Below, in pieces: positions 4,712 to 23,911 of a stretch of DNA of 64,000 nucleotides. The DNA comes from [Ruminococcus] torques ATCC 27756 (GTDB lineage Bacteria; Bacillota; Clostridia; Lachnospirales; Lachnospiraceae), in contig NZ_DS264349.1 in the NCBI RefSeq assembly GCF_000153925.1, positions 73,454 to 137,453 on the forward strand, written 5' to 3'. The notes under the pieces are model-generated. The model searched no databases. It was given only the letters and a program-made list of their open reading frames with translations, and was not told the DNA's origin. Made by a program: the position numbers and the translations under genes. How positions within the stretch are numbered: position 1 is the stretch's first letter; the number at the start of each line of letters is the position of its first letter.

Positions 4712-4728
4712 AAGGAGGCTAATGCTTT

Positions 4729-4917: not shown

Positions 4918-4935
4918 AGTTTGGAGTAGGTGCAT

Positions 4936-5226
4936 ATGAACGATGAAGCGATTCAAAAAATTATAAGCTATGCAAACGAATATTTATTCGAACCGAGGTC
5001 AAATTGGTCTAAACAAGCCATTATGGAACGCTCATATGAAAGATGGGCAGTTGATGAGATTCTTTTAACTATTATGGATCATCCATTGACCGAAGCCGAC
5101 TTTGTGATAGAAGGATTTATTTTAAAAATGGAATTTTTTCTTCATATGTCGGGAAATCAGGCAAATAATCTTATATTTCAAGTTGCAGAAAATACGGCTG
5201 AGGCACTTCTTGGTCTTATTTTATAA
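4936..5226 (+). CDS. Small hypothetical phage protein
   Basis: 96 residues, acidic and helical. A GTG two codons upstream (4930) is an alternative start. No transmembrane segment stands out, although 'ADFVIEGFILKMEFFLHMSG' is moderately hydrophobic. No family was recognised. Ribosome site GGAG, 9 nt before the ATG. Confidence 0.45.
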   Translation: MNDEAIQKIISYANEYLFEPRSNWSKQAIMERSYERWAVDEILLTIMDHPLTEADFVIEGFILKMEFFLHMSGNQANNLIFQVAENTAEALLGLIL

Positions 5227-5260
5227 CCACAAATTTTATATTTTCGAAAGGAGAAACATC

Positions 5261-6112: not shown

Positions 6113-6882
6113 TGAAAAAAGAATTATCAAAAAGCTTTTTATTGCTTAAAACATCGATTAAAAAACATAGTCCAGAAATTCTTACAGGCATTGGTATTGC
6201 CGGCATGATTACGACAACTGTTATGGCGGTTCGTGCAACACCAAAGGCTCTTATTCTTATCGAAGAAAGAAAAGAGGAAATCGGCGTTAATCAGCTCGAA
6301 GCCGTAGATTTGATAAAGACAACATGGATGTGTTATGTTCCGGCAGCACTTACGGGGACACTTTCCATCGCATGTTTAATCGGCGCTAGTTCGGTAAACG
6401 TTCGTCGAAACGCAGCACTCGCAACAGCCTACACCTTATCAGAATCGGCTCTCAAAGACTATCAGGAAAAAGTAATAGAGATGTTTGGAGAGAAGAAAAA
6501 CGAAGCTGTAAAGGATGCTATTGCAAAAGACAAAGTTGAGAAAAATCCGGTGGTTACACGAGAAGTAATCATTACAGAAAAAGGAAATACACTTTGCTAT
6601 GATGCGGTGTCTGGGAGGTATTTCAAGGGAGATATCGAGAAAATTAAGAAAGCTGAATGTGAGCTGAATCGACAGATGAGGGATGAAATGTACATATCCC
6701 TGAATGATTTTTACTATGAAATTGGTTTGGATAATATTAAGCTGGGGGATGAACTTGGTTGGAATATTGATGACGGATATATCGACTTATCCTTCAGTTC
6801 GCAATTAGCCAGTGATGGAACACCTTGTCTGGTGATTGATTACACAATTGCGCCGAGATACGACTTTCGTAATTTGAGATAA
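6112..6882 (+). CDS. DUF6353-type membrane protein (paralog 2)
   Basis: 256 residues with the family plan: 'KKHSPEILTGIGIAGMITTT' helix, 'VMAVRATPKALIL', a second helix at about 80-100 ('YVPAALTGTLSIACLIGASS'), 'ALATAYTLSESALKDYQEKV' and a soluble C-terminal domain with 'GLDNIKLGDELGWN'. It is closest in layout to the gene at 3904 and overlaps the upstream stop by one base. Role unknown. Confidence 0.7.
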   Translation: MKKELSKSFLLLKTSIKKHSPEILTGIGIAGMITTTVMAVRATPKALILIEERKEEIGVNQLEAVDLIKTTWMCYVPAALTGTLSIACLIGASSVNVRRNAALATAYTLSESALKDYQEKVIEMFGEKKNEAVKDAIAKDKVEKNPVVTREVIITEKGNTLCYDAVSGRYFKGDIEKIKKAECELNRQMRDEMYISLNDFYYEIGLDNIKLGDELGWNIDDGYIDLSFSSQLASDGTPCLVIDYTIAPRYDFRNLR

Positions 6883-6911
6883 CCGCGCGAAAAAAACAAT
6901 TGCTTTAATGG
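6883..6911 (+). repeat. Recurrent start-associated motif, copy 7 (weak)
   Basis: CCGCGCGAAAAAAACAATTG then CTTTAATGG, straight after the stop of the DUF6353 gene. It fits the consensus only partly. Confidence 0.35.
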
Positions 6912-6953
6912 AAGAAGAATCACACATTTTCAAAAAATGAAAGGAGAATATTT

Positions 6954-7220
6954 ATGGAAACTAATGAGATCATGAACAATGAAGAGGTTATGGAGACAAC
7001 TACTGAGGAAATCGTTAAAGCGAGTTCCGGTAAAGGGTTTAAGGTTGCGGCCGGTGTTGGTTTAGCTGTACTTGCAGGTGTTGTAATCTACAAGTATGTG
7101 GGTAAACCGATGATTGCCAAAATCAAAGCTCAGAAGGAACAGCAGATTATCAATGCTGAGTGGGAAGATTCAGATGAACCGAACATCGAGAGTGAGAAAG
7201 AGGAATCCGAAGAAATCTAA
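6954..7220 (+). CDS. Small single-pass membrane protein
   Basis: 88 residues: acidic N-terminus, one transmembrane helix at about residues 31-48 (KVAAGVGLAVLAGVVIYKYV) and a charged tail. Ribosome site AAAGGAG, 8 nt from the ATG. No family was recognised. It adds to the membrane-protein-rich character of this stretch. Confidence 0.55.
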   Translation: METNEIMNNEEVMETTTEEIVKASSGKGFKVAAGVGLAVLAGVVIYKYVGKPMIAKIKAQKEQQIINAEWEDSDEPNIESEKEESEEI

Positions 7221-7244
7221 AGAGAAAACTGTGTTTCAACACGA

Positions 7245-7285
7245 GGGAGAGTATCTGTAACAAGGTACTTTCCCTTTTTTCTTTT
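7245..7285 (+). terminator. Intrinsic terminator
   Basis: GGGAGAGTATC pairs with GGTACTTTCCC around a TGTAACAA loop, followed by TTTTTTCTTTT. It lies 18 nt upstream of the next start. Confidence 0.75.
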
Positions 7286-7302
7286 ATCCGGAGGTGAATT
7301 TT

Positions 7303-7509
7303 ATGAATTTATATTTATATGATGGACCGGTGATGGAGTTCGATAACTGTGTTGCTAATCGTTGGACTGCTTCTACACGAGCGGTTTCTGAAAAGAAAGC
7401 ACGATCGAATCTTACATATCAATTTAAAAAGAAAAACAATCGACTTCCGGGTACAAAGATTATATTACCTGGAAAAATTAGTCTAGTGAGTGGAAAGGAG
7501 ACAACTTAA
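7303..7509 (+). CDS. Small conserved phage protein
   Basis: 68 residues, basic in the second half ('SEKKARSNLTYQFKKKNNRL'). The ATG after CCGGAGGTGAATTTT is preferred over a GTG nine bases upstream. Its stop shares one base with the next start (TAATG). The sequence style recurs in Clostridia phages without a known function; the basic segment may bind nucleic acid. Confidence 0.5.
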   Translation: MNLYLYDGPVMEFDNCVANRWTASTRAVSEKKARSNLTYQFKKKNNRLPGTKIILPGKISLVSGKETT

Positions 7510-8111
7510 TGGAGGAATATAAGCCAAATTCCCATAGGTCAAAGGAGGAACGAAAAGAATCTATTCCAGAAAAACATGTAGAGAAAGTAATTTCCGGAAC
7601 GGTGAAGCCCAAGAAGAAGTCAGAAATGCAGAAGTTTGCGGACGTATTCATTTCTGAGGATGTCAACAATGTGAAATCGTATATTGTGATGGATGTTCTT
7701 GTGCCGGCAATTAAAAAGGCAATTTCCGATATAGTTACCAACGGTATTGATATGATTTTGTACGGAGAAGCTGGGAAATCAAAAAAGAATTCTACAGCGT
7801 CCAAAGTATCCTATCAGAAATATTATGATGGCGGAAAAAAGGATTATGCCGTACCGAAAAGTCGGACAAGTTATGAATATAATGAACTCTTATTTGAAAC
7901 TCGCGGAGATGCAGAATCCGTTCTGGATGCTATGAATGAAATTATTGCTCAGTACGAGGTTGTCAGTGTCGCAGACCTTTATGATTTGGCGAATGTGTCC
8001 AACGACAACTATGCTGCAAATAAATATGGCTGGACGGATATTGCTGGATGCAGAGCAGTTCGTGTAAAAGATGGCTATATCTTGAAATTACCTAAACCTA
8101 CACCATTGTAA
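7509..8111 (+). CDS. Conserved phage protein, unknown function
   Basis: 200 residues, soluble. Basic N-terminal 60 residues, a moderately hydrophobic helix 'IVMDVLVPAIKKAISDIVTN' at about 60-80, then a region ending 'NKYGWTDIAGCRAVRVKDGY'. I recognise the pattern from gut Firmicutes phages but know no function. It is coupled to the upstream gene by a one-base overlap. Location just before the DUF3310 gene suggests an early or metabolic role. Confidence 0.5.
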   Translation: MEEYKPNSHRSKEERKESIPEKHVEKVISGTVKPKKKSEMQKFADVFISEDVNNVKSYIVMDVLVPAIKKAISDIVTNGIDMILYGEAGKSKKNSTASKVSYQKYYDGGKKDYAVPKSRTSYEYNELLFETRGDAESVLDAMNEIIAQYEVVSVADLYDLANVSNDNYAANKYGWTDIAGCRAVRVKDGYILKLPKPTPL

Positions 8112-8126
8112 AGGAGAAAATAGATT

Positions 8127-8378
8127 ATGTATGAATCAGAAGATAAAATGGTATCTCATCCGGAGCATTATATGTCCAAGACAGGTATGGAAGTCATTGA
8201 CGTCATTGAAGCGTTTACCGACGAATTAAAAGGTGTTGAGGCGACTGATACCGGAAATATCATTAAATATGCCTGCCGTTGGAAGAAGAAAAACGGTATT
8301 CAGGATTTGGAGAAAATCCTTTGGTACACGCAGCATTTAATTGATCATTTAAAAAATATAGAAGAGGAGAATAAGTAA
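8127..8378 (+). CDS. DUF3310 family protein
   Basis: 83 residues with the DUF3310 signature: 'VSHPEHYMSKTGMEVIDVIEAF' at the N-terminus and 'GNIIKYACRWKKKNGIQDLEK' in the middle. The family is small, almost purely phage-borne, and is sometimes called nucleotide-kinase-like after its T7 gp1.7-related members; the activity here is unproven. Start after AAAGGAG. Confidence 0.8.
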   Translation: MYESEDKMVSHPEHYMSKTGMEVIDVIEAFTDELKGVEATDTGNIIKYACRWKKKNGIQDLEKILWYTQHLIDHLKNIEEENK

Positions 8379-8380
8379 CC

Positions 8381-9340
8381 ATGAAAAAAGCAGAGATTGT
8401 TAAGAGTGTGAACGGTTTGTTTAGCAAAACAAGTTTTCAGTTAAAGAAGCATAGTCCGGAGATTCTTGTTGTAGCGGGGGTTATCGGCGTAGTCACAAGT
8501 GCGGTAATGGCATGTAAAGCGACAACGAAAGTCAACGAGATTCTGGACAAGACTAAAGAAGATGTTGAGGCAATTCATAAATGCGAAGAAGATGAATCTA
8601 TGAAAGAGCAGTATTCCAGCGAAGATGCAAAGAAAGATTTAACGATTGTATATGCTCAGACGGGCGTAAAGTTTGCAAAGTTATACGGTCCGTCTGTTGT
8701 GCTGGGAGCATTGTCAATTACCAGTATTCTTGCATCTAATAATATTCTTCGTAAGAGGAATGTCGCTTTGGGTGCGGCTTATGCAGCTATTGATAAAGGA
8801 TTTAAAGAATATCGAAATCGAGTAATTGAAAGATTCGGTGAAGAGGTTGATCGTGAACTGAAATATAATCTCAAAGCCAAAAAGTTTGAAGAAACTGTTG
8901 TAGATGAGGAAACTGGAAAAGAAAAAAAGGTTAAGAAAAATGGCTTTGTTGTGAGTCCGGCAGATATCAGCGGATATGCTCGTTTCTTTGAGAAATATAC
9001 GCAGGATGAAGACGGAAATTCTATTTTGAATCCTCATTGGGAAAGCAATAATGAGTACAATTTAATGTTTATTAAGGCACAGGAGCGTTATGCTAACGAT
9101 CTTCTGAAGGCTAAAAAGCGAGTATTTCTGAATGATGTTTATGAGATGCTAGGTCTTCCAAGAACAAAAGCTGGTCAGATTGTAGGTTGGGTCTATGATC
9201 CTGAGAGCCCGAAGGGAGATAATTACATTGACTTTGGGCTGTATGCAGACAATTTGAGTTATTCTGATTATGTCAATGGATTTGATCAGGCAATCCTTCT
9301 CGATTTCAACGTGGACGGAAATATTTGGGATTTGATGTAA
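8381..9340 (+). CDS. DUF6353-type membrane protein (paralog 3, long form)
   Basis: 319 residues, about 60 longer than the other two paralogs. It has 'KKHSPEILVVAGVIGVVTSAVMACKATTKVNEIL', a longer acidic insert (about residues 65-85), the second helix 'YGPSVVLGALSITSILASNN', 'ALGAAYAAIDKGFKEYRNRVIE' and a C-terminal domain with 'LPRTKAGQIVGWVYDPESP'. It starts 2 nt after the DUF3310 stop. The three paralogs suggest a heteromeric membrane assembly; that is inference. Confidence 0.7.
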   Translation: MKKAEIVKSVNGLFSKTSFQLKKHSPEILVVAGVIGVVTSAVMACKATTKVNEILDKTKEDVEAIHKCEEDESMKEQYSSEDAKKDLTIVYAQTGVKFAKLYGPSVVLGALSITSILASNNILRKRNVALGAAYAAIDKGFKEYRNRVIERFGEEVDRELKYNLKAKKFEETVVDEETGKEKKVKKNGFVVSPADISGYARFFEKYTQDEDGNSILNPHWESNNEYNLMFIKAQERYANDLLKAKKRVFLNDVYEMLGLPRTKAGQIVGWVYDPESPKGDNYIDFGLYADNLSYSDYVNGFDQAILLDFNVDGNIWDLM

Positions 9341-9354
9341 GAAAAAATTTTACA

Positions 9355-9395
9355 ACCATCCCTAAGAGTTGACCAATTCTTCGGGGTGGTTTTTT
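9355..9395 (+). terminator. Intrinsic terminator
   Basis: ACCATCCC pairs with GGGGTGGT across a 20-nt loop, followed by TTTTT. The next start lies 11 nt downstream. Confidence 0.75.
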
Positions 9396-9406
9396 AGGAG
9401 GATTTT

Positions 9407-9979
9407 ATGCGTAAGTTAATCAAAGTAATAGCCGTTCCAGTCTTATGTTGCATTATTCTATGTATATTGTTTTTCATGGTGGACTTCCGCTCAAATGGAG
9501 AAGAAGTTTCAGTCCCCAGAGCAATTGATGTTAGAAAGACGGAGCCAGCTATTGCGGTTTGGCAGGAGGAAAAGGAAGCTGTTCCGATTGCTATCGAGGA
9601 AACGGAGGAACTAACAGAAATTATAGAAGAAATGTCGAAAGAAGATGTGGAGTTAATTGCTCTTGTTACGATGGCTGAAGCAGAGGGCGAGTGTGAAGAG
9701 GGAAAACGACTTGTAATCGACACTATACTAAATAGAGTTGATTCTGAACATTTTCCAGATACCGTTTACGAGGTTATCTATCAGCCAAATCAATTTTCAT
9801 CTATGTGGAATGGACGAGTTGATCGATGTGAGGTTCGAGAAGATATTTGCGGGCTCGTTTATGAAGAATTAGAATCAAGAACAAATTATGACGTTATGTT
9901 CTTTACTGCTGGTGAGTACAGTGCATACGGTGTTCCTATGTTTCAGGTTGAAAACCATTATTTTTCAAGATACGAGTAA
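9407..9979 (+). CDS. Membrane-anchored SleB-like cell wall hydrolase
   Basis: 190 residues. An N-terminal hydrophobic signal/anchor (VIAVPVLCCIILCILFFMV, residues 6-24) is followed by an acidic linker and a Hydrolase_2 (SleB-type) domain from about residue 75. Visible are 'LVTMAEAEGECEEGKRLVIDTILNRV' with the catalytic-type Glu, and 'VIYQPNQFSS'. The family cleaves peptidoglycan in spore germination and is also found in phages. Outside the cell it could remodel the wall locally; in a replication-end phage cluster this is unexpected for a lysin, since no holin sits beside it. An anchored form would limit its reach. Confidence 0.75.
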   Translation: MRKLIKVIAVPVLCCIILCILFFMVDFRSNGEEVSVPRAIDVRKTEPAIAVWQEEKEAVPIAIEETEELTEIIEEMSKEDVELIALVTMAEAEGECEEGKRLVIDTILNRVDSEHFPDTVYEVIYQPNQFSSMWNGRVDRCEVREDICGLVYEELESRTNYDVMFFTAGEYSAYGVPMFQVENHYFSRYE

Positions 9980-9995
9980 GGAAAGGAGAATTATT

Positions 9996-10097
9996 ATGCG
10001 TAATTTTTTAGCAGTTGTGTCTTATACATTGGCAGCTATGTCTGGTATTTGTTTTGCTGGTGGAATCGCCATTCTGTCAGCAGGAAAGGGGCACTAA
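9996..10097 (+). CDS. Tiny membrane protein
   Basis: 33 residues, nearly all one hydrophobic helix ('FLAVVSYTLAAMSGICFAGG'). AAAGGAG lies 8 nt before the ATG. It sits between the hydrolase and another membrane protein; the size and hydrophobicity are also holin-like, but there is no further evidence for that. Confidence 0.45.
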   Translation: MRNFLAVVSYTLAAMSGICFAGGIAILSAGKGH

Positions 10098-10098
10098 T

Positions 10099-10263
10099 AT
10101 GGATGGTCTGGAGAATATAATATCGGTACTGGACTATGTTCTGGATACTAAAAGAAAAAGACATATTACAGGAGGCATTTTGTTGAGTGTTTCCTTTCTT
10201 TTTGGAGGATTAGCAATAACTGTAATGACAATCAAAAATGAGGAGGATGAGTATGAACAGTAA
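10099..10263 (+). CDS. Small single-pass membrane protein
   Basis: 54 residues with one helix at about 24-43 (GGILLSVSFLFGGLAITVMT). The ATG lies one base after the previous stop, and its own 3' end overlaps the next gene by 11 nt, so the three are probably translated as a coupled set. Confidence 0.5.
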   Translation: MDGLENIISVLDYVLDTKRKRHITGGILLSVSFLFGGLAITVMTIKNEEDEYEQ

Positions 10264-10852
10264 AAGGTGGGTTCTTCTTGCTTTTATTGCTGGAGCAGGG
10301 ATAGGCTCTGCATGTACATGGCAACTACTCAAGCGAAAATACGAGCAAATTGCCCAGGAAGAGATTGATTCTGTAAAAGCGGCTTATGCCGCAAGAGAAA
10401 ATGTAGAAAAAGCAGGGAAGAGTTTGTTAGAAGGCTTACAAGACGGTCTGAAGAAAAATGAAGCTCAAGAAAACGAAGATTTAAAAAAATATAAATCCAT
10501 CATTCAGAAAGAAGGCTATACAAATTATTCTCGCAGTGTGGAGGAAAAGAAAGGAGATCCGTTCGTGGAAAAGCCGTATGTTATTTCGCCAGAGGAATTT
10601 GGTGAATTTGAGGAATATGAAAAAATAAGTCTTACCTATTATGCGGATCAAGTCTTGACGGATGAAAACAACGAAGAGGTAGACGATGTGGAAGAAATTG
10701 TTGGAGAGGAATCTTTGACACACTTTGGGGAGTATGAGGACGATTCCGTATTTGTCCGAAACGATCGGTTAAAGTGTGATTACGAAATTCTGCTTGACCA
10801 GAGGAACTATTCTGATGTTACAAAGACGATGCCACATCGAGTGGAGGAATGA
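10253..10852 (+). CDS. Membrane-anchored acidic phage protein
   Basis: 199 residues. N-terminal helix 'WVLLAFIAGAGIGSACTWQLL' then a coiled-coil-prone region (residues 25-80) and a very acidic C-terminal half ending in 'YEILLDQRNYSDVTKTMPH'. The start is the ATG after GAGGAGGATGAGT. Similar anchored proteins occur in Clostridia phages beside DUF6353 genes. Function unknown. Its stop overlaps the next start (ATGA). Confidence 0.55.
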   Translation: MNSKRWVLLAFIAGAGIGSACTWQLLKRKYEQIAQEEIDSVKAAYAARENVEKAGKSLLEGLQDGLKKNEAQENEDLKKYKSIIQKEGYTNYSRSVEEKKGDPFVEKPYVISPEEFGEFEEYEKISLTYYADQVLTDENNEEVDDVEEIVGEESLTHFGEYEDDSVFVRNDRLKCDYEILLDQRNYSDVTKTMPHRVEE

Positions 10853-11400
10853 TGACGAAGAACGAGCTTAATGATGCATATTTTAATTGGATGTGTCAGC
10901 TTGTGTTTGATGGCAGATATTCGAAGAAATTATCGTATCGAAGACTTTTGAAGGTTCTGCATAAAATTGAGTTTACTTACAGTATTCCGATGGATGGAAA
11001 TCGTGCGGAAGATGGTATTGATTTGAGGTATCGGTTTGGATATGAGAATGGATACAGTAGCTCCATGATTTCCGCTTATTTAGACAATAAGACGTGCAGC
11101 GTTCTGGAAATGATGATCGCACTTGCTATTCGGTGTGAAGAGCATATCATGGACGATCCTGATGTGGGAAACCGAACTGGACAGTGGTTTTGGAATATGA
11201 TCGTAAATCTTGGATTAGGATCTATGAACGATTCTAAATTTGACAGAGCCTATATTGAAGAAATTGTGCAAAGATTTCTGGAACGAAAATATAGTCGAAA
11301 TGGTGCAGGAGGACTGTTTACAGTAAACCATAGTAGATACGATTTGAGAACTATTGAAATCTGGTATCAGATGTGCTGGTACTTAGACGAAAATGTTTAG
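10849..11400 (+). CDS. Conserved phage protein, unknown function
   Basis: 183 residues, soluble, with recurring segments 'YFNWMCQLVFDGRYSKKLSYRRLL' and 'RTGQWFWNMIVNLGLGSMND'. I recognise this protein type from Firmicutes phages but know of no activity. The start overlaps the upstream stop by four bases. It lies in the run leading to the replicase fusion and may be a replication accessory. Confidence 0.55.
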   Translation: MMTKNELNDAYFNWMCQLVFDGRYSKKLSYRRLLKVLHKIEFTYSIPMDGNRAEDGIDLRYRFGYENGYSSSMISAYLDNKTCSVLEMMIALAIRCEEHIMDDPDVGNRTGQWFWNMIVNLGLGSMNDSKFDRAYIEEIVQRFLERKYSRNGAGGLFTVNHSRYDLRTIEIWYQMCWYLDENV

Positions 11401-11410
11401 GAGGAACGCT

Positions 11411-11623
11411 ATGAGCCATAGTGAAGTAATGAAATGGTTTGAATATTATTTTCCAGATTATGCGGGTGAACGAATAGATGTATTCTTTCCAAATGGAAGA
11501 AATAGTATTCGGATACGCCAGAAAAATGGTCAGGAATTTATATTCACTTACCACAGTCAAAAAGAATGGAAATTAGAAACGATTACCAGTTTTTTGAATG
11601 GAATGAAGGGAGGAAAGAAGTAA
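11411..11623 (+). CDS. Small conserved phage protein
   Basis: 70 residues ending in a basic tail; 'VFFPNGRNSIRIRQKNGQEFIFTY' reads as a beta hairpin rich in arginine. Start after AGGAGGAACGCT. It is consistently compact and soluble; possibly a nucleic-acid binding accessory, but no family name can be given. Confidence 0.5.
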   Translation: MSHSEVMKWFEYYFPDYAGERIDVFFPNGRNSIRIRQKNGQEFIFTYHSQKEWKLETITSFLNGMKGGKK

Positions 11624-11624
11624 A

Positions 11625-11858
11625 ATGTGTGAGATTATGAATTATATTTTTAGGAGTTTACATAATTCGGACAGAAGGTTAGATGTTATCTCAAGAACTA
11701 TCAGAAAACAGCAAAAATTCAACAACGGTGTTGCGGTTTTTTCTGTTCTGGTTACGATGAATTTTTTTATTGGTGAGATTGAAAGACAGGAGCAGGCAGC
11801 AAAAATTAAAAAGCTTGAAAGCAAAATCGAAGAATTAAAGCGTGACAAAGGAGAGTAA
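11625..11858 (+). CDS. Small membrane protein with coiled-coil tail
   Basis: 77 residues. A basic N-terminal third, a hydrophobic segment 'VAVFSVLVTMNFFIG' and a C-terminal charged helix (KIKKLESKIEELKRD) with heptad spacing. It ends 8 nt before the replicase fusion, whose ribosome site lies inside this gene. Confidence 0.5.
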   Translation: MCEIMNYIFRSLHNSDRRLDVISRTIRKQQKFNNGVAVFSVLVTMNFFIGEIERQEQAAKIKKLESKIEELKRDKGE

Positions 11859-11866
11859 AAAATGAG

Positions 11867-14800
11867 ATGATCGACTTTTTGATGATTTCCACACGTAGTA
11901 CAAAGCGTGGTGCAATTGAAATCTATCCAAAGTTCATTATTAAAAAAAGCTCCGATCTGATGATTCGAGGTGGTGACTTCTACGCTATCTGGATTGAAGA
12001 ACGAGGCTTATGGTCTACGGACGAACAAGATGCTTTGCAGTTGATTGACCGTGAGCTGGATAGATACGCAGAAGAAAGCCGCCAACGCTTTGACTCTGAT
12101 ATTAAAGTCCTTCACATGTGGGATGCTGAATCTGGAATGATTGATTCCTGGCACAAATATTGTCAGAAACAGATGCGGGATTCTTTTCACACACTGGATG
12201 ATAAATTGATATTCTCCAACACCAAGACTGACAAAAAAGATTACGCCAGTAAAAAGCTGAAATATCCGCTTGAAGCTGGCGATTTGTCTGCTTATAACAA
12301 GTTGATGTCCACTTTGTACTCCGAGACAGAGAGGCAGAAAATTGAATGGGCTATCGGTTCCATTGTGTGCGGAGAATCAAAGAAATTGCAAAAATTTATG
12401 GTTTTGTATGGAGCTGCCGGAACAGGTAAATCTACGGTTCTCAATATTATTCAGCAGCTTTTTGAGGGATACTATTCCGTTTTTGATGCCAAAGCTCTGG
12501 GTTCATCTAGCAATTCTTTTGCATTGGAAGCATTCAAGAACAATCCTCTCGTGGCTATTCAACATGATGGGGATTTGTCAAGGATTGAAGATAATACTAG
12601 ATTGAATAGTCTGGTGTCACACGAGCTGATGACGGTAAATGAGAAATTCAAATCTACTTATTCAAACCGTTTTAAATGCTTTTTATTCATGGGTACAAAT
12701 AAACCGGTAAAGATAACGGACGCAAAATCAGGTCTAATACGACGATTAGTGGATGTATCTCCTTCCGGAAATAAATTAGGACCCAAAGAATACAAGACAA
12801 TTATGAAACAGATTGAATTTGAGCTTGGAGCAATTGCATATCACTGCCAAGAAATCTATTTGAAGAATCCTGGAATGTATGATGATTATATTCCTATCGC
12901 GATGTTAGGAGCTTCGAACGATTTTTATAATTTCATTGTCGATTCGTACCATGTCTTTAAGAGAGAAAACGGTACAACTTTGAAAGCTGCTTGGGAAATG
13001 TATAAAACTTATTGTGACGAAGCAAAAGTCGGATATCCATTTTCACAGAGAGTTTTTAAGGAAGAACTGAAAAACTATTTTCGAGACTACAAAGAACGAT
13101 TCAATATGGAAGATGGCTCAAGGGTAAGAAGTTATTACATTAGATTTCGGACAGAAAAGTTTGAAGAGGAAACTATTGTAGAGAAACAGGAAGAAAAGCA
13201 TTCGTTGTTACACTTTGACAGCATAGAGTCTGTATTTGATAGAGAGTGTTCTGATTGTCCGGCTCAGTATGCAACGGAAAAAGAAACTCCGTCAATGAAG
13301 TGGGATAATGTAAAAACCAAACTGTCAGACTTGAATACTTCTCAAATCCATTATGTTAAAGTCCCGGAGAATCACATTGTGATTGATTTTGATATTCCGG
13401 ATAAAGACGGAAATAAATCGTTTGAGCGGAATGTAGAAGAAGCAAGTAAGTGGCCGGCAACATATGCAGAGTTAAGCAAAAGCGGAAAGGGAGTTCACCT
13501 TCATTATATCTATACGGGAGATGTGAACAAATTAAGTCGTGTTTATGACGACCATATTGAAGTAAAAGTGTTCACAGGCAAAAGCTCATTACGGAGAAAG
13601 CTTACGAAGTGTAATGACTTGCCTATCGCAGCTATTAGCTCTGGTTTACCGATGAAAGGAGAAAATAAAATGGTAAATTTTGAAGCGATAAAAAGCGAGA
13701 AAGGGCTTAGAACACTGATTAAACGAAATTTGAATAAAGAAATTCATCCAGGTACTAAGCCTAGTATCGATTTTATCTACAAAATACTGGAAGATGCTTA
13801 CTCCAGTGATTTAAGTTATGATGTGACGGATATGCGTAATGCGGTATTGGCATTTGCAGCAAACAGTACACATCAAGCCGATTATTGTATTAAATTGGTA
13901 AACAAGATGCAATTCAAATCGGCAGACCCTTCCACAGCGGGGAAAAATGAAGAGGCAAAACTGGTGTTCTATGATATTGAAGTATTTCCAAATTTATTCC
14001 TTGTAAATTGGAAGATGGAGGGGGAAGGGAAACCAGTTGTGCGAATGATCAATCCAACACCAACGGAAATTGAAGAATTGATGCGATTCCGATTGGTTGG
14101 ATTTAACTGTAGGAGATATGACAATCACATTCTCTATGCAAGACTTATGGGTTATACAAATGAGCAATTATACAATCTTTCGCAAAAGATTATCAGTGGA
14201 AGTCCAAATTGTTTCTTTGGAGAAGCCTATAATGTTTCTTATACGGATGTATATGATTTTGCATCTGCTGGAAACAAAAAAAGCTTGAAAAAGTTGGAAA
14301 TTGAAATGGGAATCCATCATCAAGAATTAGGACTTCCATGGGATCAACCAGTACCGGAAGAAATGTGGACAAAAGTTGCTGAGTATTGTGATAACGATGT
14401 GATTGCTACGGAAGCAGCGTTTCGTTATCTGAAAGCGGATTGGACTGCTAGACAGATTCTGGCGGATTTAGCTGGAATGACTGTCAATGATACCACTAAC
14501 ACTCTTACTCAGAAAATTATATTTGGGAATGAGCGAAAACCGCAAGACCAGTTTCATTATCGTAACTTAGCAGAGCCAGTACATGATCTTGATGATGAAA
14601 CATATTCGTTCTTAGCGGAAGCATGTCCGGAAATGATGTCTCAAACGCATGGGGAAGAAGGAAGTCTTTTGCCATATTTTCCAGGATATAAGTACGAAAA
14701 CGGAAAGTCTACTTATCTAGGAGAAGAAGTTGGAGAGGGCGGTTATGTTTATGCAGAACCAGGAATGTATGGAGATGTAGCTCTGTTAGATATTTCTTCC

Positions 14801-15931
14801 ATGCATCCGCATAGTGCGATTGCGGAGGTATTGTTCGGAGTTAAATTTACCAAAGCATTCCGTGATATCGTAGAAGGACGAGTCAGCATTAAACATGAGG
14901 CATGGAATGAGGTCAATCATATGCTGGATGGAAAGCTGACACCGTATATTCAGAAAGTAATTGATGGAGAAATGACGGCGAAGGATTTGGCGAACGCTTT
15001 GAAGACTGCGATCAATTCTGTTTACGGTCTTACTTCTGCAAATTTCGATAATCCATTCCGCGATCCTAGAAACAAAGATAATATTGTAGCCAAACGAGGA
15101 GCTCTGTTCATGATTAACCTCAAACACGAGGTACAGGAACGGGGCTTTACTGTTGCTCATATTAAGACAGATTCTATTAAGATTCCGGACGCAACTCCTG
15201 AGATTATCCAGTTTGTTATGGATTATGGAAAACGGTATGGCTACACCTTTGAACATGAGGCTACATATGACAGAATGTGTTTGGTAAACGATGCTGTTTA
15301 TATCGCCAAGTATAAAGACGGAAAATGGACCGCAACCGGTACACAATTCCAGATTCCATATGTCTTTAAGAAACTTTTTAGTAAAGAAGAGATTGTCTTT
15401 GAAGATATGTGTGAAACAAAATCAGTAAGCAGTGCATTATATTTGGATATGAATGAGGGGCTTCCCGATGTATCTTCTTCTGAAAAGGAATTTGCAAAAT
15501 TGGAAGATCAATACAAGAAAGGGCTACTCTCAGATACAACTCTCGAGAATCTTTGTGGGGAACTGCTCGAACGTATCGAAGAAGGACACAATTATATTTT
15601 CATTGGGCGAGTTGGTCAATTCTGCCCGATTAAGCCGGGGGCTGGCGGCGGTTTATTGATGAGAGAAAAAGACGGAAAGTATTATGCTGCTACAGGCTCA
15701 AAAGGGTATCGATGGCTGGAATCAGAGATGGTTAGAGAATTATCTAAAGAAGATTCTATCGACCGTTCTTATTATGACAAACTTGTCGATGATGCAGTAA
15801 AGACCATATCTAAATATGGCGATTTTGAATGGTTTGTTTCAGAAGATCCTTACATTGCAAAGCCAAAACTTGAGGATTTTATGAACATTCCAGAAGATGC
15901 AGATGAAGAAATACCATTTAATTATAGGTAA
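11867..15931 (+). CDS. SF3 helicase - AEP primase - family B DNA polymerase fusion
   Basis: 1354 residues; a complete replisome core in one chain. Residues 150-330 form a D5-like SF3 helicase (Walker A GAAGTGKST at about 183, 'LFMGTNKPVKI' sensor region). Residues 470-600 look like an archaeo-eukaryotic primase/PrimPol: 'VIDFDIPD' with the metal-binding acids (about 503), 'SGKGVHLHY' (about 541) and 'IEVKVFTG' (about 564). From about 700 comes a DnaQ-like 3'-5' exonuclease (DIEVFPN, FNCRRYDN, YCDND), then a family B palm: motif A DISSMHPHS (about 974), motif B KTAINSVYG (about 1046) and motif C HIKTDS (about 1099), where the usual first Asp of DTD is replaced. The C-terminus ends in an SSB-like acidic tip (DEEIPF). 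An internal ribosome site and ATG lie at 13655-13672. Domain names are from motifs only. Confidence 0.8.
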   Translation: MIDFLMISTRSTKRGAIEIYPKFIIKKSSDLMIRGGDFYAIWIEERGLWSTDEQDALQLIDRELDRYAEESRQRFDSDIKVLHMWDAESGMIDSWHKYCQKQMRDSFHTLDDKLIFSNTKTDKKDYASKKLKYPLEAGDLSAYNKLMSTLYSETERQKIEWAIGSIVCGESKKLQKFMVLYGAAGTGKSTVLNIIQQLFEGYYSVFDAKALGSSSNSFALEAFKNNPLVAIQHDGDLSRIEDNTRLNSLVSHELMTVNEKFKSTYSNRFKCFLFMGTNKPVKITDAKSGLIRRLVDVSPSGNKLGPKEYKTIMKQIEFELGAIAYHCQEIYLKNPGMYDDYIPIAMLGASNDFYNFIVDSYHVFKRENGTTLKAAWEMYKTYCDEAKVGYPFSQRVFKEELKNYFRDYKERFNMEDGSRVRSYYIRFRTEKFEEETIVEKQEEKHSLLHFDSIESVFDRECSDCPAQYATEKETPSMKWDNVKTKLSDLNTSQIHYVKVPENHIVIDFDIPDKDGNKSFERNVEEASKWPATYAELSKSGKGVHLHYIYTGDVNKLSRVYDDHIEVKVFTGKSSLRRKLTKCNDLPIAAISSGLPMKGENKMVNFEAIKSEKGLRTLIKRNLNKEIHPGTKPSIDFIYKILEDAYSSDLSYDVTDMRNAVLAFAANSTHQADYCIKLVNKMQFKSADPSTAGKNEEAKLVFYDIEVFPNLFLVNWKMEGEGKPVVRMINPTPTEIEELMRFRLVGFNCRRYDNHILYARLMGYTNEQLYNLSQKIISGSPNCFFGEAYNVSYTDVYDFASAGNKKSLKKLEIEMGIHHQELGLPWDQPVPEEMWTKVAEYCDNDVIATEAAFRYLKADWTARQILADLAGMTVNDTTNTLTQKIIFGNERKPQDQFHYRNLAEPVHDLDDETYSFLAEACPEMMSQTHGEEGSLLPYFPGYKYENGKSTYLGEEVGEGGYVYAEPGMYGDVALLDISSMHPHSAIAEVLFGVKFTKAFRDIVEGRVSIKHEAWNEVNHMLDGKLTPYIQKVIDGEMTAKDLANALKTAINSVYGLTSANFDNPFRDPRNKDNIVAKRGALFMINLKHEVQERGFTVAHIKTDSIKIPDATPEIIQFVMDYGKRYGYTFEHEATYDRMCLVNDAVYIAKYKDGKWTATGTQFQIPYVFKKLFSKEEIVFEDMCETKSVSSALYLDMNEGLPDVSSSEKEFAKLEDQYKKGLLSDTTLENLCGELLERIEEGHNYIFIGRVGQFCPIKPGAGGGLLMREKDGKYYAATGSKGYRWLESEMVRELSKEDSIDRSYYDKLVDDAVKTISKYGDFEWFVSEDPYIAKPKLEDFMNIPEDADEEIPFNYR
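13655..13672 (+). promoter_or_regulatory. Internal ribosome site and in-frame start for polymerase half
   Basis: AAAGGAG at 13655-13661 is followed by an ATG at 13670 (8-nt spacing) in frame with the fusion, at residue 602, between the primase-like and the exonuclease-polymerase parts. It would produce a stand-alone polymerase of about 753 residues. It may be active or a relic of two genes that fused. Confidence 0.6.
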
Positions 15932-17665
15932 TTGCGAAACAAGTCCGCAATCCTGACTGAAAACAGGCGAAGGCTCCTGTCATGCAGGATTCTTGGGATA
16001 GGAAGTGAAAATCGTTCATTTCTTGGCACAACAAATAAACCTCATGGGCTTATGAAGTTGGTAAGTCCTATGCTATGAGTGGTTTTAAACTTCGTATGTA
16101 TTGATGCTGGTGAATTTTATCAGCAACCATGACAGTTATTAACTGAGAAATTCCTGCAAGCAACAAATCTGCATGTAGTGTTTTCTCATTTTGGGTTTTA
16201 CGACCGGCAATACAGAAACTGTCTTTAAAATGGTTGATTGATTTTTCAACGTTTACACGGATTTTATAGGTCTCATCCCATTCTACGGAACCACGTTCCA
16301 CACCGGGATAGGCACGCAGATTCTTTTCGGGGTAAATGTAAATCATTCTTCCACAGGAAGATGTGGTACAGGGGTTCTCACAGCGGCAGACACGGCGTTT
16401 CGTTTTGGTTTCACGGTTGTATTCCCATTTCATTTTAGGGCATACAAACTTCATGCTGGGAAGTTTGCTTCTCAGATGAGATTTACTCCCTTCCCGTTTC
16501 ATAGGAAGTGTGGAATCATGCGGACAGCAAGGAACACCATTTTCGTTGAAGGTGTAGCCATTTTCTTCCATTGATAGTTTTGTCCGGAGTGGAATAAATG
16601 CTTTTTCAAAGCCAAGATCATCCAAAAGGGCTTTGTAGATTTCAATGGTATCAAAAGCGGCATCGCCTAGAAAAGTTTTAGGGTTGATCAAAGGATGCTT
16701 CTGAAAGAAATCAATCAAAACAGGGAGCAGTGCCTTAGAGTCCGCAAGTGATTTATCTTCATCTGGTGAATCGGATTTCTTTTCAACAATGATATTAGGA
16801 TGAGCATTTAGGAAATCTTTATTGTAGAAGGTAATATCGCGAACAATACCAAGACCATTAGTGACAATACCAAACTTATAGGCATAGCAGAAATGTCCGT
16901 TGATGTACATCTGTTGGATAGCTGGGTTAGCAGTAGCGTGTGCAGGCATTGAGCCGTAAGCAGCTTTGTAAGGATCAAAGTTTTTATCAAAGTTGTGAGC
17001 CTTTGCAAAGGCCTTTAACTGTTTTATGATACGGTTTGCGTATTTCGGATTATTTTCTGTTACCCATGCCTCAATTCCAGAAGTATCAAAGATACTCATG
17101 GAAGCAAGGTTAGAATCAATACGTTGGCAGATCGGTTCAGTGATATCAACTAAGTGATCGAACATCGATTGTAAGTCCATAAGAAAGTCCTGTTTAAAGC
17201 GGGTAAATTTTGAGGCATCAGGAACAACACGGAAGCCACAGAAATCCCGTAGTTCCTGAGAATATTTTAAAAATATAATCAGAAGAGTATCTGTCGGGAT
17301 TGAGAAAATGCGCTGAATAAGGAGAGCCTTAATCATAGGATAAAGTGGATGCTTACGAGGTCTTCCTGTAGAAGCGTGAAAATGAGTAACAAAAGAAACA
17401 GGAACAATTTCATCAAGATTAATGGTTTGGTCAAGTAGAGAAAGAAACTGATATTTGTCATTATCGAATTTATTTTGGCAATCTTCAAAAACTTCTGCCA
17501 AAGTGAGCTGCTTATATGGTATCATATAGGTACATCTCCTTTCGGGTGGTTGGTTTATAGTTTCTAGGCAACTCTATTTTACCACAATCCGTTGAGGAGA
17601 TGTTTTGTTTTATAAAAGTTAAAATGCCGTATTTATGCGGCTTGTGGCGTTTCGCAAACACCTAT
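15924..17665. mobile_element. IS1182-family insertion sequence
   Basis: About 1.74 kb. It carries one transposase gene on the - strand and is bounded by imperfect inverted ends: ATAGGTAATTGCGAAAC (15924-15940) and its complement GTTTCGCAAACACCTAT (17649-17665), matching at 15 of 17 positions, with AAG-CCGC matches further inside. The exact tips are uncertain: the shared core TTGCGAAAC could be the true end (15932-17657), and the stop codon of the polymerase lies inside the longer version. No clear target duplication was seen. Confidence 0.7.
16068..17525 (-). CDS. IS1182-family transposase
   Basis: 485 residues, the usual length for the family, with no internal stop. It has an N-terminal DUF772-like domain ('MIKALLIQRIFSIPTDTLL') and a DDE domain: 'FDTSGIEAW' (first Asp, about 145), 'FLGDAAFDT' (second Asp, about 285) and a C-terminal 'RVNVEKSINHFKDSF' that supplies the Glu. 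A cysteine-rich insert (CRCENPCTTSSCG) precedes the Glu, as is common in IS1182 relatives. The ATG follows CGAAAGGAGATGTACCTAT. It cuts and pastes or copies the element; it looks functional. Confidence 0.9.
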   Translation of the reverse strand: MIPYKQLTLAEVFEDCQNKFDNDKYQFLSLLDQTINLDEIVPVSFVTHFHASTGRPRKHPLYPMIKALLIQRIFSIPTDTLLIIFLKYSQELRDFCGFRVVPDASKFTRFKQDFLMDLQSMFDHLVDITEPICQRIDSNLASMSIFDTSGIEAWVTENNPKYANRIIKQLKAFAKAHNFDKNFDPYKAAYGSMPAHATANPAIQQMYINGHFCYAYKFGIVTNGLGIVRDITFYNKDFLNAHPNIIVEKKSDSPDEDKSLADSKALLPVLIDFFQKHPLINPKTFLGDAAFDTIEIYKALLDDLGFEKAFIPLRTKLSMEENGYTFNENGVPCCPHDSTLPMKREGSKSHLRSKLPSMKFVCPKMKWEYNRETKTKRRVCRCENPCTTSSCGRMIYIYPEKNLRAYPGVERGSVEWDETYKIRVNVEKSINHFKDSFCIAGRKTQNEKTLHADLLLAGISQLITVMVADKIHQHQYIRSLKPLIA

Positions 17666-17694: not shown

Positions 17695-18498
17695 GTGCTT
17701 ACGATTGGAAATTATGTAAAGGCGAAAACGCCGGAAGAAGCATATGAATTAAATCAGGCGCGCAGCAGCAGGATCATGGGCGGAATGATGTGGATGCGCC
17801 TTTCAAATGCAAGAGTGAAAACATTGATCGATATTTCAGGTTTAGGATTGGATCAAATAGAAGAAACGGAAGATGAGATACGAATCGGAGCAATGTGTAC
17901 GCTGCGTCAGATCGAGCAAAGCGAAGCAGTTAAAAAATTATGCGGAGACGGAATAGAGGAGGCTGTGCGTCACATTGTCGGAGTTCAATTTCGGAATCAG
18001 GCGACGGTTGGAGGAAGCATTTACGGAAGATTCGGTTTTTCAGACGTATTAACTGCATTTTTGGCACTGGATACATATGTAGAACTTTATGACGGAGGAA
18101 GAATCTGCTTAGCTGAATTTGCAAAGAAAAAACCGGATAATGATCTGCTTCTTTTCATAGTTGTTAAGAAGAAGAAAAGACAGTTCCGTTATGATTCCAT
18201 CCGTCAGACGAAGACGGATTTCCCTGTGATCGCCTGTTCAGTGTCAAGAGAGAAAGCGAACGGGCAGGAGACATGGTATTTTGCGGTAGGCGCAAGACCG
18301 ATGAAGGCAGATATGATCGAAAAGAAATGGTCTGTCGCAAAAGATGCGTCTTTAGAGAAAATCGAGGAATATGCGGCTTTGGCAGCGGCAGAATTTAAGT
18401 ACGGTACAAATATGCGCGGAAGCGCCGGGTACAGACAGCATTTGGCAAAGGTCCTTATCAAGAGAGAAATAATGTCGATTTTATCGGAGGAAATATAA
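17695..18498 (+). CDS. xdhB: Molybdenum hydroxylase FAD-binding subunit (XdhB-like)
   Basis: 267 residues from the GTG at 17695, which follows AAAGGAG by 7 nt; a longer frame upstream would start in the IS end. It belongs to the FAD_binding_5/CO_deh_flav_C type: the flavin region includes 'GGMMWMRLSN' in place of the usual GGTD-type turn and 'FRNQATVGGSIYGRFGFSDV' for the isoalloxazine pocket. In xanthine dehydrogenase-type enzymes this subunit passes electrons from the 2Fe-2S clusters to FAD. Its stop overlaps the start of the next gene (TAATG). The absent chromosomal upstream region is replaced by the IS, so its native promoter may be lost or lie in the IS. Confidence 0.85.
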   Translation: MLTIGNYVKAKTPEEAYELNQARSSRIMGGMMWMRLSNARVKTLIDISGLGLDQIEETEDEIRIGAMCTLRQIEQSEAVKKLCGDGIEEAVRHIVGVQFRNQATVGGSIYGRFGFSDVLTAFLALDTYVELYDGGRICLAEFAKKKPDNDLLLFIVVKKKKRQFRYDSIRQTKTDFPVIACSVSREKANGQETWYFAVGARPMKADMIEKKWSVAKDASLEKIEEYAALAAAEFKYGTNMRGSAGYRQHLAKVLIKREIMSILSEEI

Positions 18499-18977
18499 TG
18501 GAGATACAGTTCGTTTTAAATGACAAACAGGTAAAAGCAGAAGTTGGCGCAGATACGATTTTGTTAAATGTGTTGAGAGATCTCGGATGTAAGAGCGTAA
18601 AGTGCGGCTGCGAGACGACAAACTGTGGATTGTGTACAGTCTGGATCAACGGAAAATCCCGCCTTTCCTGCTCGGTTCTTGCCGCAAGTATCGAGGGAGA
18701 GAGCGTTACGACTTTGGAAGGCGTTGAAAAAGAGGCTGCGCAGTTCGGAGAATTTTTGGCAGATGAAGGAGCGGAGCAGTGCGGTTTCTGTTCTCCGGGA
18801 TTTATTATGAACGTGCTCGCAATGGCAAGAGAACTTCAGAACCCGACATTGGACGAGATCAAAGAATACCTTGCGGGAAATCTTTGCCGCTGCACGGGAT
18901 ATATGGGACAGCTTCGCGCGATTAAAAAATATATAGAAGTAAAAAATGCAGAGAAAAAAGGCGGAAAGGAGGAGTAG
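18498..18977 (+). CDS. xdhC: Molybdenum hydroxylase 2Fe-2S subunit (XdhC-like)
   Basis: 159 residues. The N-terminal plant-type ferredoxin domain has 'KCGCETTNCGLCTVWING' and a following CSVLA cysteine. The C-terminal four-helix domain has 'QCGFCSPGFIM' and 'LCRCTGYMG', giving the second 2Fe-2S cluster. It moves electrons from the molybdenum site to FAD. It is the middle gene of a three-gene operon, overlapping the FAD subunit by one base and lying 2 nt before the large subunit. Full length and intact. Confidence 0.92.
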   Translation: MEIQFVLNDKQVKAEVGADTILLNVLRDLGCKSVKCGCETTNCGLCTVWINGKSRLSCSVLAASIEGESVTTLEGVEKEAAQFGEFLADEGAEQCGFCSPGFIMNVLAMARELQNPTLDEIKEYLAGNLCRCTGYMGQLRAIKKYIEVKNAEKKGGKEE

Positions 18978-18979
18978 AC

Positions 18980-21319
18980 ATGGCAGAAGGACAGAATGTG
19001 TGCAGTGAGAACAAGGAAATAAGAGAAACGATGCGGCAGATGCGTGTTGTAAATAAAGGAATCCGGAAAGTTGACGCAAAAGCGCTCGTGACAGGACGCG
19101 CCGTATATACAAATGATATCGCATCTTCAGACAGCTTAATCGTAAAGCTTGTAAGAAGCCCTCATGCTCATGCGCTGATCAAAGAGATTAATACTACACG
19201 TGCGGAGGCGCTCCCGGGAATTGAATGTGTGCTTACATATAAAGACTGTCCGAATAAACGTTTCACGCTGGCAGGTCAGACATATCCTGAGCCAAGTCCG
19301 TACGACCGGCTTATTCTTGATCAGAGAATCCGGTTCGTAGGAGATGCGGTCGCAATCGTCGCTGGAACTTCGGAAGCGGTTGTAAAGCAGGCTATGAGGC
19401 TGATCAAAGTAAAATACGAAGTATTGGAGCCGGTTTTAGATTTCAGAACGGCAAAAGATCATCCGATCCTCGTTCATCCGGAAGAAAACTGGAGAAGTCT
19501 TTGTCCTGTCGGAGCGGATAACAAACGTAATTTGTGTGCTCATGACGTAAGTGAGAGCGGAGATGTAGATGCAGTCCTTGCATCTTGCGACCATGTGATC
19601 GATCGGGTATACCATACAAAAGCAAATCAGCAGGCGATGATGGAAACATTTCGTACATATACATATATGGATGCATACGGAAGGCTGAATATTGTATCTT
19701 CTACCCAAGTGCCTTTCCATGTCCGCCGCATTCTCGGAAATGCGCTTGATATTCCGAAGCATAAAATCCGTGTTATAAAGCCGCGTATTGGCGGCGGATT
19801 CGGGGCAAAACAGACGTCGGTTTCGGAGATTTATCCGGCGCTTGTTACATGGAAAACAGGAAAACCGGCAAAGATTATTTACACAAGAGAAGAGTCTCTG
19901 ATCGCTTCGTCACCTCGCCACGAAATGGAAATCCATGTTCGTTTAGGAGCGGATAAAGAGGGAAATATCAAAGGGATTGATCTGTATACATTGTCAAATA
20001 CAGGCGCGTTCGGTGAACACGGCCCCACAACGGTCGGGTTATCCGGGCATAAATCGATTCCTCTTTACGGAAGCGCAGAAGCGTTTCGGTTCAGTTATGA
20101 CGTAGTGTATACAAATGTTATGTCTGCGGGAGCTTATAGGGGATATGGGGCGACACAAGGTATTTTTGCCTTAGAGTCTGCGGTAAATGAACTGGCACAG
20201 ACACTTCATATGGATCCGACCGTTCTCAGAGCGAAAAATATGGTGCGGGAAGGTCAGATGATGCCTGCCTACTATGGGGAGACGACGAGAAGCTGTGCTC
20301 TCGACAGATGTCTTGAACGTGCGAAAGAAATGATAGGATGGGATGAAAAATATCCCTGTTATGACTGTGGAAACGGAAAAGTCCGCGGTGTCGGCGTTGC
20401 TATGGCGATGCAGGGATCGGGAATTTCGGGAGTAGATACAGGCGCGGTTGAAATTAAAGTAAACGATGACGGATTTTACAGTTTAATGATCGGGGCGACC
20501 GATATGGGAACGGGCTGCGATACGATACTGACACAGATGGCTGCAGAATGTCTTGAGTGTGAGATGGAAGATATTGTCGTGCATGGAGTAGATACAGATA
20601 ATTCCCCGTATGACTGCGGATCTTACGCATCCAGTACGACATATGTTACGGGAATGGCAGTTGTGAAAACGTGTGAGACACTTCGGAAAAAGATATGCGA
20701 AAGAGGGGCGGAATATCTCGGATGCAGTCCTGATGATGTGGAGTTTGACGGAGAAAAAGTTGTCAATCTGAAAACAAAAGAAGAGATAACGAGAAAAGAA
20801 ATAGGAAACAAAGTAATGTGCAGCAGCAACGCGCCGCTGTCCGCAACAGAAGCCTTTTCTTCTCCTGTATCTCCGCCGCCGTTCATGGTCGGTATTGCAG
20901 AAGTGGAGATCGATAAAGAGACGGGAGTTGTTGAACCAATCGATTATGCCGCTGTTGTAGACTGCGGAACGGTCGTTAATCCGAATCTTGCAAGAGTGCA
21001 GACTGAAGGGGGAATCGCCCAGGGAATCGGAATGGCGCTTTATGAGGATATCATTTACAGCGAAAAAGGAAAGAACTACAGTAATTCCTTTATGCAGTAT
21101 AAAATACCGAGCCGTCTTGATGTCGGAGAGATCCGTGTGGAATTCGAGAGCAGTTATGAACCGACAGGACCTTTCGGCGCAAAATCCATTGGAGAGATCG
21201 TTATCAATACTCCGTCTCCTGCAATTTCAAATGCAGTTCAAAATGCAGTCGGAGTAATTGTGAGGGAGCTTCCGATCACGGCGGAGAAAGTGTATAAAGG
21301 AATGGCGGAAAAAGAATAA
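18980..21319 (+). CDS. xdhA: Molybdenum hydroxylase large subunit (xanthine dehydrogenase family)
   Basis: 779 residues. An aldehyde oxidase/xanthine dehydrogenase a/b hammerhead at about 30-140 is followed by the molybdopterin-binding domain: 'GGGFGAKQT' (about 270), 'GAYRGYGATQG' (about 380) and 'FGAKSIGEI' near the end, which carries the catalytic Glu. It would hydroxylate a purine, aldehyde or N-heterocycle at a Mo-pterin centre in the cytoplasm; the substrate cannot be read from the sequence. Selenium-dependent relatives are common in Clostridia, but no maturation genes are in view. Operon with the two genes upstream. Confidence 0.88.
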   Translation: MAEGQNVCSENKEIRETMRQMRVVNKGIRKVDAKALVTGRAVYTNDIASSDSLIVKLVRSPHAHALIKEINTTRAEALPGIECVLTYKDCPNKRFTLAGQTYPEPSPYDRLILDQRIRFVGDAVAIVAGTSEAVVKQAMRLIKVKYEVLEPVLDFRTAKDHPILVHPEENWRSLCPVGADNKRNLCAHDVSESGDVDAVLASCDHVIDRVYHTKANQQAMMETFRTYTYMDAYGRLNIVSSTQVPFHVRRILGNALDIPKHKIRVIKPRIGGGFGAKQTSVSEIYPALVTWKTGKPAKIIYTREESLIASSPRHEMEIHVRLGADKEGNIKGIDLYTLSNTGAFGEHGPTTVGLSGHKSIPLYGSAEAFRFSYDVVYTNVMSAGAYRGYGATQGIFALESAVNELAQTLHMDPTVLRAKNMVREGQMMPAYYGETTRSCALDRCLERAKEMIGWDEKYPCYDCGNGKVRGVGVAMAMQGSGISGVDTGAVEIKVNDDGFYSLMIGATDMGTGCDTILTQMAAECLECEMEDIVVHGVDTDNSPYDCGSYASSTTYVTGMAVVKTCETLRKKICERGAEYLGCSPDDVEFDGEKVVNLKTKEEITRKEIGNKVMCSSNAPLSATEAFSSPVSPPPFMVGIAEVEIDKETGVVEPIDYAAVVDCGTVVNPNLARVQTEGGIAQGIGMALYEDIIYSEKGKNYSNSFMQYKIPSRLDVGEIRVEFESSYEPTGPFGAKSIGEIVINTPSPAISNAVQNAVGVIVRELPITAEKVYKGMAEKE

Positions 21320-21321
21320 AA

Positions 21322-21412
21322 GCAAGTATGTAAAAGCAAGTATATAAAATGGAGATATTAAAAAAATATTAAAAACAAAGATATAAAAAATAAAGATATA
21401 AAAGATATAAAA
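21322..21412 (+). repeat. A-rich low-complexity tract with short direct repeats
   Basis: AAAGCAAGTATGTAAAAGCAAGTATATAAA is followed in the genome by several AAAGATATAAAA-type units. It lies between the xdhA stop and a terminator. No gene is seen; slippage-prone filler is the simplest reading. Confidence 0.5.
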
Positions 21413-21417
21413 ATAGA

Positions 21418-21460
21418 GGAGATGCGCTGTTGATTTGCGGCATCTCCTGCTTTATTTTTG
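21418..21460 (+). terminator. Intrinsic terminator of the molybdenum hydroxylase operon
   Basis: GGAGATGC pairs with GCATCTCC over a 14-nt loop, followed by TGCTTTATTTTTG. Confidence 0.8.
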
Positions 21461-21509
21461 TCGTTATGTAAAAGTTTATTCGTTTATGAAGACTATAGGT
21501 ACAACATTC

Positions 21510-22571: not shown

Positions 22572-22582
22572 AGAATCTCCTT

Positions 22583-23864: not shown

Positions 23865-23911
23865 AGTAGAGTTAATGATAGGCGATCAAGAACAATTAAG
23901 GAGTTGATGCA

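Follow-up and report, generated by a model that had tools for sequence, protein, structure and literature searches.

The window analysed here, a stretch of 64,000 nucleotides from [Ruminococcus] torques ATCC 27756 (contig NZ_DS264349.1, positions 73,454 to 137,453 of the forward strand), carries in its left part one long gene whose predicted product reads, from its N-terminus, as a superfamily 3 (SF3)/D5-type helicase, a primase of the archaeo-eukaryotic (AEP) type, a 3'-5' exonuclease and a family B DNA polymerase (PolB) (Table 1). The frame contains no internal stop over its 1354 codons; on the opposite strand, the one reverse frame that was translated holds many stops, and a 186-amino-acid reverse open reading frame (ORF) at 14786-15346 was only listed. 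A PHROGs profile search matched PHROG_4210 ('DNA polymerase') to residues 2-1337 (2128.7 bits), and to parts of the chain the later parts of the DNA primases of phrog_1156 (residues 119-431, E 3.8e-20), the early part of another DNA primase, phrog_3022 (residues 465-567, E 2.9e-5), and phrog_1252, a PolB family (residues 674-1161, E 5.7e-49). Judged from its sequence, the protein is almost certainly a member of the HelPrimPolB family, to which GP55 of Lactococcus phage 1706 belongs, and would thus be the prophage's single-chain replicase with helicase, primase and proofreading polymerase. A preliminary description of this DNA, made from the letters alone, had recognised the same three domains, and our analyses bear out their order and places, the motifs lying within a few residues of where it put them. 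It had also regarded this order in one chain as unusual; that claim of novelty fails because the order proved to be that of a family already known, common in phages and described since at least 2020.

Table 1. Features of the replicase gene and of the adjoining insertion sequence in the window; fractions refer to the 179 distinct sequences compared.
Feature	Residues	Window position	Strand	Basis or remark
HelPrimPolB/GP55-type replicase (predicted)		11867..15931	+	one open frame, 1354 amino acids as it stands
SF3/D5-type helicase part	1-430	11867..13156	+	Pfam DUF5906, E 1.2e-13; model fit to 7ola_C
Walker A GAAGTGKST	182-190	12410..12436	+	K188 179/179
Walker B region AIQHDGD	230-236	12554..12574	+	D234 177/179, E in 2
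Arginine finger region SGLIRR	288-293	12728..12745	+	R292, R293 179/179
PriS-like AEP primase domain	about 465-600	13259..13666	+	phrog_3022; hhalign to PrimPol profile
AEP motif I IDFDIPD	506-512	13382..13402	+	D507, D509 179/179
AEP motif II KSGKGVHLHY	538-547	13478..13507	+	H544 179/179
AEP motif III IEVKVF	564-569	13556..13573	+	E565, K567 179/179
Four-helix domain, counterpart of GP55 aHD	about 607-690	13685..13936	+	model helices; Y651, F663
3'-5' exonuclease domain	about 700-870	13964..14476	+	Exo I-III motifs
Family B polymerase palm/fingers/thumb	about 950-1330	14714..15856	+	phrog_1252; model fit
PolB motif A LDISSMHPHS	974-983	14786..14815	+	D975 179/179; H980 178/179
PolB motif B LKTAINSVYGL	1045-1055	14999..15031	+	K1046, N1050, G1054 179/179
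PolB motif C AHIKTDSIK	1097-1105	15155..15181	+	KTDS 179/179, GP55 included
Insertion sequence, outside the replicase system		15925..17664	-	Pfam DUF772 transposase ORF 16068-17525; sits in the replicase stop codon

The search of phage databases for this domain order, which the preliminary description had called for, found it widely. By tblastn, 357 of 50,697 phage records match at E ≤ 1e-5, and in 252 of these the match spans 80% of the query or more; at E ≤ 1e-3 the matching records rise to 491 and those with at least 80% coverage remain 252. Among the matches listed, the long ones come from phages of Arthrobacter, Gordonia, Streptomyces, Rhodococcus, Lactococcus and Faecalibacterium and from gut phages. 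A pattern scan of viral contigs yielded at least 300 stretches, every one a relative, and the best 80 of them were retained; the same kind of scan of bacterial genomes gave 107 relatives among 110 stretches, with 78 loci kept, which by their record titles, and short of a tally, are mostly from Lachnospiraceae, Oscillospiraceae and other Clostridia. In 152 of the 165 loci with a match (166 were given), a single ORF holds the chain, with an alignment that starts no later than residue 30 and reaches at least residue 1290; the other 13 are cut by contig ends or broken in frame. An independent fusion at this locus, or an assembly artefact joining neighbouring genes, would hardly produce the same order in one ORF in so many loci and phage records, and nothing that speaks for either was found in the 165 loci and 357 phage records; we give this explanation practically no credence.

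What the family can do is known from GP55, and Zhang et al. 2025 (PMC12205980) report the purified protein with all four activities: unwinding driven by UTP or dTTP, synthesis of RNA primers with GTP favoured and CCAAC as the site, PolB extension, and 3'-5' exonuclease activity, with a strand displacement that depends largely on the helicase. In that work GP55 was active as a polymerase and copied M13 completely, was mainly a dimer in solution and had a primase and a polymerase able to act in trans; a dimer in which one subunit primes and the other extends is a proposal of its authors. Over 1000 homologues were collected by PSI-BLAST. Mutation of K189, D509, D712, E714, D949, Y655 or F667 (D712 and E714 mutated together) is described as abolishing helicase, primase, exonuclease, polymerase or priming, and these seven residues align to K188, D509, D703, E705, D975, Y651 and F663 of the window protein, which is 43.2% identical to GP55 over the aligned positions of a whole-length alignment. 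The idea in the preliminary description that one polypeptide coordinates priming and synthesis agrees with what was measured for this homologue.

The conservation of the catalytic residues was followed in 179 distinct sequences, 146 from the first set of 165 loci (leaving out 13 partial sequences and 7 identical to another) and 33 from a second set of 44 new loci (leaving out 5 loci with no matching ORF of 600 amino acids, 2 partial sequences and 4 identical ones). Invariant throughout are K188, N278 (the sensor 1 Asn), R292, R293, D507, D509, H544, E565, D975, K1046, N1050 and D1102, together with the residues of Exo I (702-707; D703 and E705), Exo II (747-754; N747 and D752) and Exo III (840-845; Y840 and D844). 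AlphaFold2 models from 62-row alignments reached a mean predicted local distance difference test score (pLDDT) of 86.2 and a predicted template-modelling score (pTM) of 0.57 for residues 1-700, and 90.9 and 0.81 for residues 640-1354. Superposed on the SaPI5 primase-helicase (7ola_C), the first model reaches Z 22.6 with a root-mean-square deviation (rmsd) of 4.8 over 368 aligned residues; for the D5/E5 helicases of poxviruses and the helicase of NrS-1, Z is about 17 to 19. A conventional helicase-primase, with the AEP domain before the D5/SF3 helicase and no polymerase, was ruled out as a candidate, the helicase occupying residues 1-430, the AEP motifs residues 506-569 and PolB the chain from residue 700.

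The assignment of the primase holds by sequence, on the three AEP motifs, on phrog_3022 and on a match to a PrimPol profile that, though weak, is specific to this stretch. The third motif, IEVKVF, was absent from the list of the preliminary description and completes the primase centre. When the primase stretch was compared by hhalign with a 23-sequence PrimPol profile, two overlapping cuts gave P 2.5e-4 and 3.1e-4 over 65 columns that run from motif I through motif III, compared with 0.06 to 0.67 for seven stretches elsewhere in the chain. The Pfam Prim-Pol model stays under its cut-off in the window protein (14.8 versus 22.8 bits) and is found at E ≤ 0.1 in 10 of 62 relatives, with a best E of 0.021; Foldseek rows against African swine fever virus PrimPol, about 500 columns long, had an rmsd mostly above 10 and were left unused. 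Behind the AEP domain, the model shows helices at 611-622, 630-646, 654-665 and 671-680, in agreement with the aHD of GP55, which is described as two helix pairs. Within this domain, residue 651 is Tyr in 174 and residue 663 Phe in 176 of the 179 sequences.

The second model, that of residues 640-1354, is similar to B-family polymerases of archaea and eukaryotes (KOD Pol, Pol alpha), with Z up to 14.2, and the polymerase centre departs from the usual form at two places. In motif A, which reads S-M/L-H-P in most sequences, the position usually held by Tyr is His in 178 of the 179, Tyr being found solely in one relative (L059); in motif C, Lys replaces the first Asp in all of them. The motif A Tyr of B-family enzymes guards against ribonucleotides. 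Five stand-alone phage PolBs (Listeria P40, Enterococcus EF-M80, Eggerthella EL753P1, Pantoea Vid5 and JenP2), picked by hand from partial tblastn matches and hence a non-random sample, have the Tyr in 5 of 5 and read NTDG (4) or NTDA (1) in motif C. The 179 sequences read H-I/V-KTDS, and a relative dropped from them (L151) reads ACKTDS, therefore the His before KTDS is not universal. In that same relative (L151:12716-13868) and in another (L160:2271-2846), the replicase is split at one shared point, after DLATGEQS, between exonuclease and palm; the splitting ORFs carry homing endonuclease domains of a NUMOD4/I-HmuI-like type, in L151 a Bro-N ORF lies at this point too, and Rfam found no introns in the two loci.

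The substitutions, KTDS in every sequence and His in all but one, raise the question as to whether the polymerase centre is inactive. This is very improbable, since GP55 carries both of them and is nevertheless an active polymerase, and since active primer-independent PolBs, according to Kazlauskas et al. 2020 (PMC7544198), likewise do without the first Asp of motif C. As GP55 has the His and KTDS, its published activities are those of an enzyme with the variant centre. The text of the GP55 paper that was searched contains none of the terms 'steric', 'KTD' and 'motif C', and the KTDS string was absent from the papers that our literature search listed, from which it does not follow that the variant has never been published. 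It is tempting to speculate, though we consider it rather doubtful, that the His/Lys pair arose as an adaptation by which PolB can accept the very short RNA primers passed on within the same chain, perhaps with a relaxed selection of the sugar. If so, the polymerase itself would be specialised for self-priming, beyond the mere fusion. Being nearly invariant, the His and the Lys are two single residues at which the acceptance of short RNA primers by a replicase with its own primase could be probed.

The gene ends in an insertion sequence (IS) of 1740 bp, of which the assembly holds three full copies, two identical and one 99.9% identical (the copy on contig C10 being 100% and that on C27 99.9% identical to the one in the window). 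In two relatives (L093 and L169) the replicase ends ...PFN-stop, written AAT TAA; in the window the IS comes directly after AAT TA, and the frame runs on to Tyr-Arg-stop. As read from the sequence, the last two residues and the present stop codon thus come from the IS, and the replicase would count 1352 amino acids if it ended as in those relatives. Beyond its replicase gene, L093 matches contig C26 of the same assembly (C26:198509-209184) over the following 10 kb, in ten pieces that are 68-87% identical. The end of C26 (L185) reads CACCTA, six bases equal to the right end of the IS, then ATTTAATTA, the same nine bases as window 15916-15924; the right flank of the IS in the window, TTATGTATG, is unlike those nine bases. 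Because C26 matches the continuation of L093 and its end repeats the IS end and ATTTAATTA, it is probable that the phage runs on across the IS into C26 and that the genes right of 15.9 kb lie outside its operon. Those from 17.6 kb (xanthine-dehydrogenase-type subunits, 3-dehydroquinate synthase and DAHP synthase) would have come to lie beside the phage either through recombination of one IS copy with another or through a faulty join in the assembly.

One may ask whether this is an intact gene in a crippled prophage, cut off from its replication operon by the IS in its stop codon so that the enzyme is out of use, an explanation that is compatible with the family assignment. The position of the IS and the location of the right arm of the phage on another contig speak for it. 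Yet the gene has no internal stop and keeps its catalytic residues, the protein gains just two C-terminal residues, and the right arm exists, the IS end and nine flanking bases on C26 suggesting that its two arms may be joined through the IS. We therefore hold disuse to be unlikely, while granting it some weight, and retain the reading of the gene as that of the prophage's replicase.

After the replicase, C26 continues with genes for a phage single-stranded DNA (ssDNA)-binding protein (Pfam E 8.3e-58), a methylase-like protein and a phrog_62 DNA helicase, and at a greater distance with one for an exonuclease; other genes lie between them, and their relative order is that of phages 1706 and FP_oengus. 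Some 0.6-1.4 kb before the window begins lie repressor-like genes (L084:18616-19368), which fit a temperate phage. Upstream of the replicase stand three phrog_2152 paralogues (window 3904-4683, 6112-6882 and 8381-9340), the one that was tested matching Pfam DUF6353, as well as a tRNA-like gene (window 3438-3509) to which ARAGORN gave a two-base anticodon with no assignment and which scores 48.1 bits to the Rfam tRNA family; a similar tRNA match lies in the relative L151 (L151:3282-3353). A second phage occupies window 32895-64000, with an integrase on the minus strand (32895-34376), a primase/helicase (42036-43907, phrog_8841), a terminase (49599-50930) and a tape measure protein (55466-59206).

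Several observations count against the assignment of the gene as a working replicase of this family. The PrimPol profile match is weak, with a probability of only 43% and 39% in the two cuts, and the fold matches (VIA-align) of the model of residues 1-700 spanned residues 9-429, that is the helicase, and hardly covered the AEP part. The KOD fit of the polymerase model has a high rmsd of 7.3 over 440 aligned residues, and no Pfam family matches the polymerase part of the window protein at E ≤ 0.1; DNA_pol_B is matched by the polymerase parts of 36 of 62 relatives, and Pfam alone would have missed most of the chain's domains. The GP55 priming site CCAAC shows no clear enrichment in window 1-15900 (8 seen versus 6.5 expected), nor does its reverse complement GTTGG there (17 versus 13.5), the corresponding figures for the host stretch 18001-37000 being 4 versus 2.9 and 13 versus 10.8. 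At 43% identity, the preferences of GP55 for UTP or dTTP in unwinding, for GTP as the start and for the CCAAC site may differ here; the activities of the window protein are deduced from conservation, all of them having been shown for GP55. Finally, the genes behind the replicase may be expressed abnormally owing to the IS in its stop codon.

In the mechanism that we propose, the N-terminal SF3 helicase would unwind the template and drive strand displacement, the PriS-like AEP domain would make short RNA primers together with the four-helix aHD, and the C-terminal family B polymerase would extend them, its own 3'-5' exonuclease proofreading the product. A phage ssDNA-binding protein would be encoded beside the replicase in the phage's own gene order.

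Among known systems, the SaPI5 primase-helicase (PDB 7ola) has the same helicase fold, but its helicase lies later in the chain (residues 316-749 aligned), whereas here it comes first; that enzyme is not known to have a PolB attached. The YerA41 polymerase was set aside as a comparison, being a family A enzyme and hence irrelevant. HelPrimPolB is a named group in Kazlauskas et al. 2020 (PMC7544198), the only paper in which our literature search met this name; there the group has an SF3 helicase and a PrimPol fused N-terminal to PolB, and its motif C is called profoundly different. Compared with that text, the window protein has the same fusion order and a divergent motif C, and no difference was found. 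In Faecalibacterium phage FP_oengus, gene 28 is 59.3% identical across the whole query (tblastn) and is annotated as 'helicase/polymerase' in MG711463 and as 'DNA polymerase' in NC_047916. The three DUF6353 genes upstream of it and the gene annotated as single strand annealing protein downstream both have counterparts here; unlike in the window, the annotation of the FP_oengus record has no IS at the replicase stop codon. GP55 (1317 amino acids) shares with the window protein the domain order, the length class, the seven mutated residues, the His of motif A and KTDS, and differs from it by an identity of only 43% and by the two IS-derived C-terminal residues of the window copy; in its phage 1706, genes annotated as single strand annealing protein, helicase and exonuclease follow further downstream. 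The present case adds the prophage of a Clostridia-type genome to a named family with a purified member, and the activities of GP55 probably extend to the window protein and to further homologues in which these catalytic residues are retained.

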